From the NCBI RefSeq assembly GCF_001019715.1, contig NZ_BBXJ01000001.1:1674001-1738000 (forward strand): 64,000 nucleotides of DNA. The letters run 5' to 3'. The notes below the pieces were generated by a model that worked only from the letters and a program-made list of their open reading frames with translations, did not search any database and had not been told where the DNA came from. Origin of the DNA: Rodentibacter caecimuris. GTDB taxonomy: Bacteria; Pseudomonadota; Gammaproteobacteria; Enterobacterales; Pasteurellaceae. Numbering within the stretch: position 1 is the stretch's first letter; each line of letters starts with the position of its first letter. A program made the position numbers and the translations under genes. Shown one piece after another: positions 1,272 through 5,004 of this stretch.

Positions 1272-1381
1272 GGAAACCTTCCCAGCTTCTTCTCGGCACA
1301 CAGAAATTCCGACTTTGGCTGCTTTCTTCCGAACCTGACCGGGTAAACCGGACACCGTTGCGAGAGACCGAGAAGGTTTCC
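1272..1381 (-). ncRNA. ffs: 4.5S signal recognition particle RNA
   Basis: Read on the minus strand, the segment contains the SRP core GGTCAGGTTCGGAAGAAAGC followed by AGCC, which matches the conserved 4.5S RNA asymmetric loop and apical region. The two ends (GGAAACCTTC and GAAGGTTTCC) are perfectly complementary and close one long hairpin of 110 nt; E. coli 4.5S RNA is 114 nt. The RNA binds Ffh and targets inner-membrane proteins co-translationally. A promoter and a short 5' leader precede it. It lies opposite to the flanking cydC and nrdG. No protein is encoded here. Confidence 0.93.
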
Positions 1382-1502: not shown

Positions 1503-1973
1503 ATGAACTATTTACAATATTACCCTGTTGATGTAGTGAATGGCGAAGGGACACGCTGTACTCTTTTTGTGAGTGGCTGTACCCATGGCTGCAAGGGTTG
1601 CTACAACCAAAAAAGTTGGTCGTTCAATGCCGGCGTAGTATTTGACGAGGCGATGGAACAACAGATTATCAATGATTTAAAGGATAGCCGTATCAAACGC
1701 CAAGGTTTGACACTGTCCGGAGGCGACCCATTACATCCTCGTAACATAGAAACGCTTTTGCCTTTCGTACAACGGGTAAAACATGAATGCCCCGACAAAG
1801 ATATTTGGGTATGGACAGGTTACAAATTAGACGAATTGGACGAAAATCAGCGTGCTATGTTGTCCTATATTGATGTCCTCATTGATGGAAAATTTGAACA
1901 AGAAAAAGCCGACCCCAGCCTGCTCTGGCGGGGATCGGCGAATCAGATTATTTATCACTTTAAGGATTTATAA
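1503..1973 (+). CDS. nrdG: Anaerobic ribonucleotide reductase activating protein (radical SAM)
   Basis: A 156-residue radical SAM enzyme with the cluster motif CTHGCKGC (C26, C30, C33) near the N terminus, the family's usual place and size. NrdG uses S-adenosylmethionine and a 4Fe-4S cluster to make the glycyl radical on NrdD, allowing dNTP synthesis without oxygen. The motif LTLSGGDPL further on is the SAM-binding GGE/GGD region. NrdD is not in the window. The stop codon lies inside a TTATAA palindrome that also holds the stop of the converging glycosyltransferase gene, so the two genes overlap by six bases and no terminator separates them. Confidence 0.95.
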   Translation: MNYLQYYPVDVVNGEGTRCTLFVSGCTHGCKGCYNQKSWSFNAGVVFDEAMEQQIINDLKDSRIKRQGLTLSGGDPLHPRNIETLLPFVQRVKHECPDKDIWVWTGYKLDELDENQRAMLSYIDVLIDGKFEQEKADPSLLWRGSANQIIYHFKDL

Positions 1974-3224
1974 TTTCACCTCAAAAGGAAGCCATTTTTT
2001 CATCAATTGTAATACTTCTTCTGTGAAATAATGATAGGCTTCAGCTTTCAATTCCGGTGAATACTGTGAATATTGATAACGATAAGCTATACTAAAGTTA
2101 ACCGCTCTAATTCTTTCTAAATTGACAAACATTCGTTTTGCTTCGTCATTAACATTTTTAATGTCATTTTGGCGTTGTTCATAAAGTTTTATTAAATATT
2201 TATCAAGTTCAAATAGATGAACAAGTTTTGATATATCGTTTTTTGTTGTGGTGAGACTATTTGGTCTTAAACGATAGTGATAAAATACACGCCCTACCTC
2301 AATCACTGTAACATCTGAGAGAGAAAGAATTTCTGCAATAAACAGCAAATCTTCCCCAATATTTAAGGCTTCATTAAGCCAAAGATTATTTTGGCGCAAA
2401 AAGTTTGTTCTAAAAAAACCAAAACAGCAACTTGGAAGCCAATCCCATTTGAGCATATCATTCAAATGTTGATAACTACTCATAACCTCATATTGATTTG
2501 ATTTTATTCGGGAGGACTCAAACCTACGTGAACAAGGTCCTCTTGAATCGCATTCATAACTATTTTCTATGGTGCCTTTTAGCACATCGGCTTGATGTCT
2601 GTCAGCAATCTCAACCATGCTGCCTAAATGAGTTTCAACAATCCAATCATCTGGATCGACAAAATAGACATAACGTCCTTTCGCTTGCCTCAAGCCGGCA
2701 TTACGGGCAGAAGCAACCCCTTGATTATGTTGATTGATGAGGGTAATGAAGGGATAACGAGAGAAATACTGCTCGGCAACGGCTAGACTACCATCCGTTG
2801 AACCATCATTGACAATGATGATTTCTTTACTCACGGACTGTGAAACAAGACTATCCAAACACTGAGCAAGATATTTTTCGACATTGTAAACAGGAACAAC
2901 AAAACTTAGACTAATCTCTGACTGACTGACTGACTGACTGACTGACTGACTGACTGACTGACTGACTGACTGACTGACTGACTGACTGACTGACTGACTG
3001 ACTGACTGACTGACTGACTGACTGACTGACTGACTGACTGACTGACTGACTGACTGACTGACTGACTGACTGACTGACTGACTGACTGACTGACTGACTG
3101 ACTGACTGACTGACTGACTGACTGACTGACTGACTGACTGACTGACTGACTGACTGACTGACTGACTGACTGACTGACTGACTGACTGACTGACTGACTG
3201 ACTGACAAAATGATATTTCTCCAT
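1968..3224 (-). CDS. Phase-variable family 2 glycosyltransferase
   Basis: The protein (418 residues from the ATG at 3224) starts MEKYHFV, continues as about 24 copies of SQSV encoded by a tetranucleotide tract, then enters a GT-A glycosyltransferase domain near residue 105: FVVPVYNVEKYLAQCLDSL, VNDGSTDGS, and the DPDDW metal/nucleotide-sugar motif. Family 2 enzymes transfer a sugar from a nucleotide sugar, here probably onto lipooligosaccharide or another surface glycan; acceptor and donor cannot be read from sequence. I prefer the ATG over an upstream in-frame GTG at 3233; neither has a strong ribosome binding site. In this sequence the frame is open (phase ON); gain or loss of one repeat would shift it. 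Last gene of a possible operon with the three genes above it. Confidence 0.88.
   Translation of the reverse strand: MEKYHFVSQSVSQSVSQSVSQSVSQSVSQSVSQSVSQSVSQSVSQSVSQSVSQSVSQSVSQSVSQSVSQSVSQSVSQSVSQSVSQSVSQSVSQSVSQSVSQSEISLSFVVPVYNVEKYLAQCLDSLVSQSVSKEIIIVNDGSTDGSLAVAEQYFSRYPFITLINQHNQGVASARNAGLRQAKGRYVYFVDPDDWIVETHLGSMVEIADRHQADVLKGTIENSYECDSRGPCSRRFESSRIKSNQYEVMSSYQHLNDMLKWDWLPSCCFGFFRTNFLRQNNLWLNEALNIGEDLLFIAEILSLSDVTVIEVGRVFYHYRLRPNSLTTTKNDISKLVHLFELDKYLIKLYEQRQNDIKNVNDEAKRMFVNLERIRAVNFSIAYRYQYSQYSPELKAEAYHYFTEEVLQLMKKWLPFEVKL
2918..3206 (-). repeat. AGTC tetranucleotide tract, about 72 copies
   Basis: An uninterrupted period-4 run (CTGA on the plus strand, read as AGTC/TCAG on the minus strand) of 289 bases, about 72 units, with no variant unit seen. 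It lies six codons after the ATG of the glycosyltransferase. Because 4 is not a multiple of 3, slipped-strand mispairing moves the gene in and out of frame. AGTC repeats are known from the phase-variable type III methyltransferase gene mod of H. influenzae. True copy number may be affected by assembly. Confidence 0.97.
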
Positions 3225-3270
3225 AGTGTACACTGCAATGAAACTATTTTATTACATATAATACATTTTC

Positions 3271-3624
3271 CTATGTCGATTTTAACCAATGGTTTATATA
3301 GAACTCAATATCATCATCACTATAACCAAGTAATTTCCCGATTTTTCTTTCTAAATCAGGATTAAATTTACAAAAATTTTGCCGTAGTATTGAGGCTAAC
3401 CTCTCTGCGTTTGCTACATTTTCCAATCTATAAATTAAATAATAGCTAAAATCACCCAATAATTTGTCTTTTAGCTTAATTTCTTTCAGTTCAAAAGTTT
3501 TATTCTCTAAATAAGGAAAAAAATCCTCGGGCACTTCACTGTCCGTGTAAAACAATGCAATCTCTTTTTGATGATTGAGCATTAATTCTAATTCTCTCCC
3601 TTCATGCGGTCCTAAAACGCCCAT
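3271..3624 (-). CDS. Unrecognised 117-residue protein
   Basis: I do not recognise the family. The ATG at 3624 is chosen over a TTG at 3639 because GGGAG stands eight bases before it. The product is soluble-looking and charged, with no signal peptide or membrane segment. A C-terminal stretch GKLLGYSDDDIEFYINHWL looks helical. It starts four bases before the stop of the YjjV gene, which suggests translational coupling, and ends 46 bases before the glycosyltransferase start. The position gives no clear function; a small accessory or immunity-like protein is possible but not supported. Confidence 0.7.
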   Translation of the reverse strand: MGVLGPHEGRELELMLNHQKEIALFYTDSEVPEDFFPYLENKTFELKEIKLKDKLLGDFSYYLIYRLENVANAERLASILRQNFCKFNPDLERKIGKLLGYSDDDIEFYINHWLKST

Positions 3625-3628
3625 CTTA

Positions 3629-4420
3629 TTATCTCCCAAATAATTTATTACTATTACACCAAATAACCTCTTTTATTTGATCGGATTCCTCATTCCTTAG
3701 CTCACATAAGGAATGAAATACCTGAATAATCCGCTCAGGACGATTTGGCTGCCCCTGGAAACCAAACACCGGCATATCGGGGGAATCCGTTTCTAACACC
3801 AAGGCATCCAAAGGCAATTTTGCAATGGCTTGGCGGGTTTTGTTCGCCCGTTGATAAGTAATGGTGCCACCGACACCGATTTTATAACCAAGATCCACAA
3901 ACCGTTTGGCTTGATCATAACTACCGGCAAAACCATGTATCACGCCATATTTAGGCAATGAAATACGTTTTAAAAAAGTAAACACTTGATCATGAGATTT
4001 TCGACTATGAATATTTACGGGTAAGTCAAATTGTTTCGCTAAATAAAGCTGACTTTCAAAAAAATGACATTGTTTTTGCCAAAGTTTGTCCGTCAATAAA
4101 TCGGGAATCGCTCGTTCTAAACCAATTTCCGCCAGCGCCGTACCATTTTTATCACGCTGCCCTAACGCTTGTTCCAACACGGATAAATCCTTTTCCGAAT
4201 GTTCTTTAATATAAAGCGGGTGCAAACCTAGCCCGTAATATAAACTTTCCGGATAAAGTGCGGTCATTTTTTGAATTGTTTTGAAATCCCGTTCAAGCAC
4301 TGCAACAATCAGAATTTTCTCTACATCGGCTTGCTTAGCATTTTCCACTAGTTGTGAAAGGGAGTCGCCGGTAAACCGCTGTAAATAATCAAGGTGGGTA
4401 TGAGTATCGAAAAAAGGCAT
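3629..4420 (-). CDS. yjjV: TatD-family metal-dependent hydrolase YjjV
   Basis: Amidohydrolase-fold nuclease-like protein of about 263 residues. The metal ligands are visible in order: FFDTHTHLDYL at the N terminus, EIGLER, HSRK, HGFAGS and ETDSPDMP. The block GYKIGVGGTITYQRANKTRQ and the following FQGQPNRPE closely resemble E. coli YjjV rather than TatD itself. Members are cytoplasmic and often have DNase activity; the physiological substrate of YjjV is unsettled. The ATG at 4420 is preferred over a TTG six codons upstream because the family starts just before the THTH motif. It overlaps nothing upstream and is coupled to the small gene downstream. Confidence 0.9.
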   Translation of the reverse strand: MPFFDTHTHLDYLQRFTGDSLSQLVENAKQADVEKILIVAVLERDFKTIQKMTALYPESLYYGLGLHPLYIKEHSEKDLSVLEQALGQRDKNGTALAEIGLERAIPDLLTDKLWQKQCHFFESQLYLAKQFDLPVNIHSRKSHDQVFTFLKRISLPKYGVIHGFAGSYDQAKRFVDLGYKIGVGGTITYQRANKTRQAIAKLPLDALVLETDSPDMPVFGFQGQPNRPERIIQVFHSLCELRNEESDQIKEVIWCNSNKLFGR

Positions 4421-4449
4421 AATATTTAATTTAGTCAAACCTTATTATT

Positions 4450-5004
4450 CTATTCTTGATCTTCCTGCTCAATCAACTGCCAATCAATTTCATCGCTGAT
4501 ATATCCTTCTTCATGTAACCCATTTATGAAACGGGAATGACAATAATCACTATCCAATTCTGATAATGCCCAATTAGGTTCTCCTGCACGAGGGTTCCCC
4601 TCATCTAATAAAGAAATAAATTGCTCAGTAACCGTTTGTGTATAGAGTTGCAAATACCTTCCTAACTCTTCAGGAGAAAGGTATTGTTTTACCTTTTTAT
4701 GTAATGCCATAAATTCATCGCTTTCCTCCGCATATTCTTGGGTATAGTAAATATGCTTGCTCACCTCACGATTAATTTTTTCCAATTCTCTTAAAACAGC
4801 AAATCGAGCAAATTGAGGGAGATTTTCTTTAATCTCACTGATTGCCCAAGAAAACGGTTTTTTTGAACCTGCTTTTCTCATTTTATTTATCAAAGCAAGT
4901 AGATTATTTCGTTCTTGTTCCGTGAGAGAATGAATTGTATTAAGGTAATATTCTCTTTGATAATCCTCATACTCTGCTTCAACAATTTTAATCAGTTCTT
5001 CCAT
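4450..5004 (-). CDS. Unrecognised acidic 184-residue protein
   Basis: I do not recognise this protein. The ATG at 5004 has GGGGA about eight bases upstream; a second in-frame ATG at 5019 lies before that site, so the shorter start is preferred. The product is acidic, rich in Glu, Gln and Leu, probably helical, without signal peptide or membrane helix, and ends in the acidic tail QLIEQEDQE. It sits 29 bases upstream of yjjV on the same strand and could be its operon partner. The base composition is like that of the neighbours. Confidence 0.7.
   Translation of the reverse strand: MEELIKIVEAEYEDYQREYYLNTIHSLTEQERNNLLALINKMRKAGSKKPFSWAISEIKENLPQFARFAVLRELEKINREVSKHIYYTQEYAEESDEFMALHKKVKQYLSPEELGRYLQLYTQTVTEQFISLLDEGNPRAGEPNWALSELDSDYCHSRFINGLHEEGYISDEIDWQLIEQEDQE

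Follow-up and report, generated by a model that had tools for sequence, protein, structure and literature searches.

A tetranucleotide tract at the start of a glycosyltransferase gene

The window, that is the whole 64,000-nucleotide stretch of Rodentibacter caecimuris DNA analyzed here, carries near its beginning a glycosyltransferase (GT) gene convergent with nrdG. The gene order reads cydC, an SRP RNA gene, nrdG, the GT gene, a 122-aa open reading frame (ORF), tatD, a 189-aa ORF, and two genes that resemble ppiB and cysS. The features of this locus are the following:

1276-1374, minus strand: gene for the small SRP RNA of bacterial type, flanked by cydC and nrdG
1503-1973, plus strand: nrdG, convergent neighbor whose 3' end overlaps the GT stop codon; found in all 15 genomes of the genus
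1968-3224, minus strand: GT2 glycosyltransferase ORF read from ATG 3224, 418 aa including the SQSV tail of about 96 aa; in the GT frame at 72 units
1968-2918, minus strand: GT2 body, 316 aa; dN/dS 0.10-0.21 against five homologues
2918-3206, minus strand: (AGTC)72.25 simple sequence repeat, 289 bp, SQSV-encoding (Tandem Repeats Finder and our own count)
3206-3208, minus strand: TTG touching the tract, on balance the predicted native start; out of the GT frame at 72 units, 100-aa product; aligned with the TTG and GTG of two tract-less orthologues
3218-3222, minus strand: GGAGA, resembling a Shine-Dalgarno sequence and contributing to the strongest pairing (-6.4 kcal/mol) available to the TTG; shares one base with ATG 3224, the last of that codon
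3222-3224, minus strand: ATG of the original prediction, from which the GT body is in frame at 72 units; upstream of it no Shine-Dalgarno pairing was found
3271-3639, minus strand: 122-aa ORF upstream of the GT gene, without match in Pfam or NCBIfam profile searches
3629-4438, minus strand: flanking TatD-family DNase, by profile match

Tandem Repeats Finder reports the AGTC tract with a period of 4, 72.2 copies, 100% match and 0 indels, and direct counting gives 289 bp of perfect repeat, or 72.25 units. Its array score is 578, the runner-up in the window scoring 61, and a chance repeat as the origin of the tract was rejected on this result. Read on the minus strand, the unit is AGTC and the encoded peptide is a series of SQSV repeats. 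The tract lies inside a contig of 2.70 Mb, in a genome of two contigs (2.72 Mb), and a contig-end artefact is therefore excluded; the figure of 72.25 units is an assembly consensus, from one assembly of one strain. In these respects the original prediction is borne out: it had described a very long AGTC tract (about 72 units) inside a glycosyltransferase gene, six codons after the ATG (M-E-K-Y-H-F, counting from ATG 3224) and encoding SQSV repeats ahead of a GT2 domain. The exceptional length that it had claimed relative to mod also holds, at 72 against 32 units for mod of Haemophilus influenzae Rd (PMC2651432). The tract repeats a non-triplet (4-bp) unit 72.25 times and lies at the 5' end of the ORF; its length exceeds the threshold of more than 10 AGTC units for hypermutability in Table 1 of PMC4235727.

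The GT gene abuts nrdG in five of the 15 genus genomes (that of the window, G000, and G009, G001, G004 and G005). The next tested gene after nrdG is tatD, or the 122-aa ORF followed by tatD, in nine, and the contig ends after nrdG in the remaining one (G003). Since it adjoins nrdG in only some genomes of the genus, the GT gene is an accessory gene at this site. On its far side lie tatD in G004, the 122-aa ORF and tatD in the window, and a contig end in both G009 and G005b, while no tatD was found beside the gene in the stretch examined of G001. The 122-aa ORF was seen in three of the 15 genomes (the window, G006 and G007), although some of the compared loci did not extend far enough to show it. 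Promoter-like sites at 3258-3308 of the minus strand come from a set of 12 predictions that hardly exceeds the shuffled background (mean 8.0, s.d. 2.6).

The gene encodes a GT2-type glycosyltransferase

The 418-aa ORF is made up of six codons, the SQSV repeat and the 316-aa body. It matches PF00535 at residues 107-246 with 121.6 bits (gathering cut-off 23.3; E = 4.1e-35), which by profile score places it in GT2. The other Pfam results are of GT2-type families, with one weak, sub-threshold match to low complexity; the ORF holds no DNA methyltransferase domain and does not belong with the modA type III methyltransferases, and a mod-like identity of the gene was rejected on this evidence. Residues N37 D38 G39 S40 T41 D42, D88 D90 D91 and E189 D190 are invariant in all seven aligned rows, so that the ORF carries the GT-A signature (NDGSTD, D-x-DD), whose residues are typical of GT2 enzymes.

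Among NCBIfam profiles the top match is NF007482 (PRK10073), presumably YibD/WaaH of Escherichia coli, at 145.2 bits (E = 2.3e-42). This score is far under the curated cut-off of 423, and the ORF is accordingly not a member of the family; although PRK10073 is its best curated match, the substrate of that family is not transferable to it. A sequence search against solved structures returned 19 matches, named glycosyltransferases or polysaccharide-synthesis proteins (best 3bcv, 9.8e-26), among which there was no trustworthy substrate clue.

To assess selection on the body, dN/dS was computed for 14 of the 15 homologue pairs and ranged from 0.09 to 0.21. The five pairs that include the window gave 0.10-0.21, with 0.21 for the window against G009. 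These low values indicate that the GT body has been kept functional, and, as judged from codon substitutions, it is under purifying selection. Because dN/dS is taken between species, it is no proof that the window allele is expressed.

Tract states among homologues

Repeat number at the nrdG-adjacent gene varies across species: 72.25 units in the window, 14.75 (extended count) in G004 at 69% identity, and no tract in G001 at 88% identity. At the same site the contig of G009 (97% identity) starts inside AGTC repeats and that of G005b (68% identity) ends inside them. A further copy, G005a (84% identity), lies at another locus without a tract. Homologues elsewhere carry AGTC17 (G157, from another genus), 18 units of GCCA/CCAG (G013), CAAT (G008a) or CCAA (G016b), and those of G016a and G008b have none. 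As four contigs of the gene family end inside the repeat (G009, G005b, G008a and G016b), the comparison of lengths is biased short. A single GT2 family with tract-less, AGTC, CAAT, CCAA and GCCA versions side by side should help in work on the gain and loss of such switches.

In the protein tree the window and G009 form a supported pair within a supported group that also contains the tract-less G001 and G005a, other forks being partly weak. The tract label requires four changes on the drawn tree, of which the starred branches force two, and shuffled labels did as well in 79 of 500 trials; the tree therefore shows no clustering of tract carriers. G001 has GTCAGTCAGTC, amounting to 2.75 units, right at the gene start, which is a seed or a remnant of a tract.

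Two observations concern individual junctions and relatives. At the border between tract and body (window 2918 versus L165:20), the window and G009 differ by two bases, and these close relatives would therefore not share the same ON repeat class. The homologous GT2 gene of G013 (L159, tract 4428-4499, about 18 GCCA/CCAG units) has an ATG with a good Shine-Dalgarno sequence and is OFF by that ATG.

AGTC tracts in the genome and in the Pasteurellaceae

The window tract is the only AGTC tract of at least six units in its own genome, where no CAAT tract of at least five units was found. A degenerate search (C, A/C, A/G, any base; at least seven units) of the same genome yielded two tracts, the AGTC tract and a CAAA tract. 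An H. influenzae setting for the gene is not supported by the genome size of 2.72 Mb or by the number of tracts, two here against 12-21 tetranucleotide repeat loci per H. influenzae genome (PMC2651432). The CAAA tract, of 26 units, lies about 0.3 kb past the end of the window (G000:C1:1738312-1738415; L203:2313-2416), where a further GT2 ORF (303 aa, PF00535 2.3e-14) has its GTG start; this ORF is in frame in the assembly.

An exact search for at least seven AGTC units matched 11 of 140 Pasteurellaceae genomes and gave 14 tracts, a total that agrees with the per-genome counts. The window tract is the longest of them at 72.25 units, followed by one of 27.5. One tract (L174) runs into a contig end and another (G157) begins 14 bases from a contig start. 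A reversed-pattern control is uninformative for this unit, since reversing AGTC yields the very repeat that the opposite strand shows.

Host genes were assigned by the Pfam match of the frame after the tract (for G157 by profile search, for L174 from the frame before the tract). Six of the 14 tracts lie in glycosyltransferase genes (those of the window, G004 and G157, a PF04488 gene, a CgtA-like gene and a GT8 gene) and three in YadA-like adhesin genes. One each lies in a sulfatase-family gene (PF00884), which we take to be possibly a phosphoethanolamine transferase, in an FkbM-type methyltransferase gene, in an N6 DNA methyltransferase gene and in an ORF without match, and one is reached from an acyltransferase ORF at a contig end. 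Three of the 14 genes would be non-glycosyltransferase enzymes that could act on glycans. These counts show that AGTC is not specific to mod, and the idea that the unit points to mod finds no support when one tract lies in a DNA methyltransferase gene against six in glycosyltransferase genes. In Power et al., 2009 (PMC2651432), likewise, no repeat unit is restricted to one gene class.

One genome of the survey, G146, has two of the YadA-like adhesin genes (L175 and L176), with an identical 50-base leader and AGTC tracts of 18.75 and 23.5 units. The shared leader suggests duplicated switches.

Start codon and predicted expression state

As this locus shows, sequence-based calls of ON and OFF hinge on the correct choice of start codon. 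The GT frame is entered in the window from ATG 3224 and also from GTG 3233, and anti-Shine-Dalgarno pairing was looked for upstream of both and not found. Among the starts of the window that read through the tract, only TTG 3208 has a Shine-Dalgarno sequence (-6.4 kcal/mol, gap of about 9-10); its product is 100 aa long and lacks the GT. Depending on the frame, the locus thus encodes a full product (ATG frame, 418 aa) or a truncated one (TTG frame, 100 aa).

The tract-less orthologues start at the aligned position, G001 with TTG (-13.0) and G005a with GTG (-8.9), and the leaders can be aligned as GGAGAAAATACCATT-GTG in G005a and GGAGAAATATCATT-TTG in the window. The GTG abutting the CAAA tract likewise has Shine-Dalgarno pairing (-9.3). 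The pairing at the TTG, the aligned starts of the orthologues and the GTG of the CAAA gene together favor the TTG, and we therefore predict, on balance, that TTG 3208 is the native start. Two points speak against it: in G004 neither tract-adjacent start (ATG or GTG) has a Shine-Dalgarno sequence, and the frame of the ATG in the window stays open across the tract. The ATG start of the original prediction is accordingly disputed. If the TTG is native, the assembled 72-unit allele is OFF for this start, or weakly expressed, as ATG 3224 or GTG 3233 could give a weakly initiated full-length protein. With the TTG frame OFF and the ATG frame ON at 72 units, two of the three repeat classes may be translatable.

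A probable phase-variable glycosyltransferase gene

Taken together, the position, unit and length of the tract, its differing state among relatives, the conserved body it precedes and the second long tract at a GT2 start in the same genome make it very probable that this is a phase-variable (contingency) glycosyltransferase gene switched by the AGTC tract. Slipped-strand mispairing in the tract would add or remove 4-bp units at replication, each of which would change the phase in which the GT2 body is read from the start codon; translation would then yield the complete enzyme in one case and, in the other, a short SQSV peptide ending soon after the tract. Switching in the living cell and use of the TTG are what we infer, and the product may decorate a surface glycan, lipooligosaccharide (LOS) or similar.

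In PMC4235727, AGTC tracts of more than about 10 units are classed as hypermutable, with 1e-5 to 1e-2 mutations per division, and mutation is described as rising in proportion to the number of repeats; the AGTC rate classes cite work on modA. By extension, the 72-unit tract should sit at the fast end of mutation rates. Long reads of Histophilus somni showed mixtures of lengths within one culture for tracts of 79-250 bp (PMC6889271), and the same is therefore expected for the 72-unit tract.

How the switch would be read out depends on the starts. Some of the lic, lgtC and lex2 genes of H. influenzae have more than one start upstream. We tentatively consider that a Shine-Dalgarno-driven TTG and an upstream ATG or GTG in another frame could create three states, of strong, weak and no expression, and that at 72 units length changes would be so frequent that nearly every colony would mix all three. 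Were this so, the 72-unit tract would be a near-continuous generator of diversity and not a rare switch. The same switch might instead use ATG 3224 as its sole real start, with the assembled allele ON and one repeat class in three ON. This we find doubtful: ATG is the most usual start codon, and across the 72 units this one keeps the GT body in frame to give the 418-aa ORF, but it has no upstream Shine-Dalgarno pairing that we could find in the window, the GGAGA overlaps the ATG itself and is spaced for the TTG, and the leaders of the tract-less orthologues align with starts at the TTG/GTG position.

Other explanations question the switch or the length of the tract. It is unlikely, though worth weighing, that the exceptional length is an assembly error or an allele expanded in culture, with a natural tract of an ordinary 15-40 units: the 72.25 units are an assembly consensus, H. 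somni cultures hold mixed lengths (PMC6889271), and the homologue contigs that end inside the repeat bias short-read lengths downward; against this, the tract is perfect and internal to the 2.70 Mb contig, and a 250-bp tract of H. somni is backed by spanning reads, so that such lengths occur (PMC6889271). That the gene is a decaying accessory, permanently OFF, whose unselected tract has run away in length appears improbable. The allele is OFF by the TTG and the gene adjoins nrdG in only five of 15 genomes, yet its body is intact, with 97% identity and a dN/dS of 0.21 against G009, which has AGTC at the same place. Most improbable to us is a functional role for the SQSV tail, which the original prediction had allowed to be a real and length-variable part of the protein; it would then serve as a linker or in binding, and frame switching would be secondary. 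About one quarter of the protein (some 96 of 418 aa) would be tail, but orthologues at 84-88% identity lack it, which rules it out as an essential part; homologues have other units, and hence other peptides, at the same place; and with a 4-bp unit two in three length changes destroy the frame. Power et al., 2009 (PMC2651432) hold, moreover, that peptides of this kind are able to form loops outside the fold and have a lower chance of perturbing it. We thus retain the phase-variable reading, bearing in mind one point against a need for the switch, namely that the tract-less orthologues G001 and G005a keep the gene (dN/dS of 0.14 between them).

Relation to known switches

The gene is very probably an exceptionally long example of an already known type of switch, translational phase variation by strand slippage. 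The original prediction had suggested that the combination of AGTC with a GT2 gene may be undescribed, which is not the case: in H. influenzae R2846, a gene of the PF00535 family has 14 AGTC units directly behind its presumptive start (Power et al., 2009, PMC2651432), and the published gene means that the combination is not new. Like the window gene, this 'lpt3 region' gene is accessory and has its tract right after the presumptive start. The two differ in repeat number (10-14 units in three strains of the table versus 72), in location (an lpt3-type region versus nrdG) and, compared by description, in size and composition (294 aa with G+C below 30%, PMC2651432, versus a 316-aa body with G+C of 0.358 in the window). 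With modA of H. influenzae the gene shares the repeat unit (TGAC32 in Rd) and the frameshift principle (PMC2651432), whereas modA is a DNA methyltransferase gene with AGTC or AGCC tracts of under half the length of the window tract. The LOS genes lic, lgtC and lex2 of H. influenzae are glycan genes that likewise carry a tetranucleotide tract at the 5' end of the coding sequence; compared by description, their units are CAAT, GACA or CAAG/GCAA (PMC2651432).

As to length, the longest H. influenzae tracts in the accessible part of Table 5 reach 51 units, in licA, and 32 in mod of Rd (PMC2651432). In H. somni, also of the Pasteurellaceae, ACTG-class tracts measure 107 and 147 bp, and an AACC tract reaches 250 bp; the latter, in a choline-kinase-like ORF, compares with 289 bp in the window and, among perfect tetranucleotide tracts, is the longest that one group reports from its closed genomes of respiratory bacteria (PMC6889271). 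Because it exceeds both this published length and, with the short-read bias noted, the other AGTC tracts of the 140 Pasteurellaceae genomes, the window tract offers a good natural test of whether ever longer tracts go on switching faster, and of what protects long ones from contraction. Searches of the open-access literature, made without the species name and with subscription journals mostly outside their coverage, found no report of this particular gene, and no open-access paper was found that links SQSV repeats to phase variation.

Elsewhere in the data, the second contig of the genome (G000:C2, L153; 19,236 bases) has a KilA-N domain region similar to two plasmid records of Pasteurella multocida, with each match spanning 2% of the contig, and no other near matches were found among plasmid records. 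Six distant GT2s were matched on viral contigs, and a broad-pattern scan of a collection of genome contigs gave distant GT2s in at least 80 loci, none bearing a Pasteurellaceae name among the titles listed.
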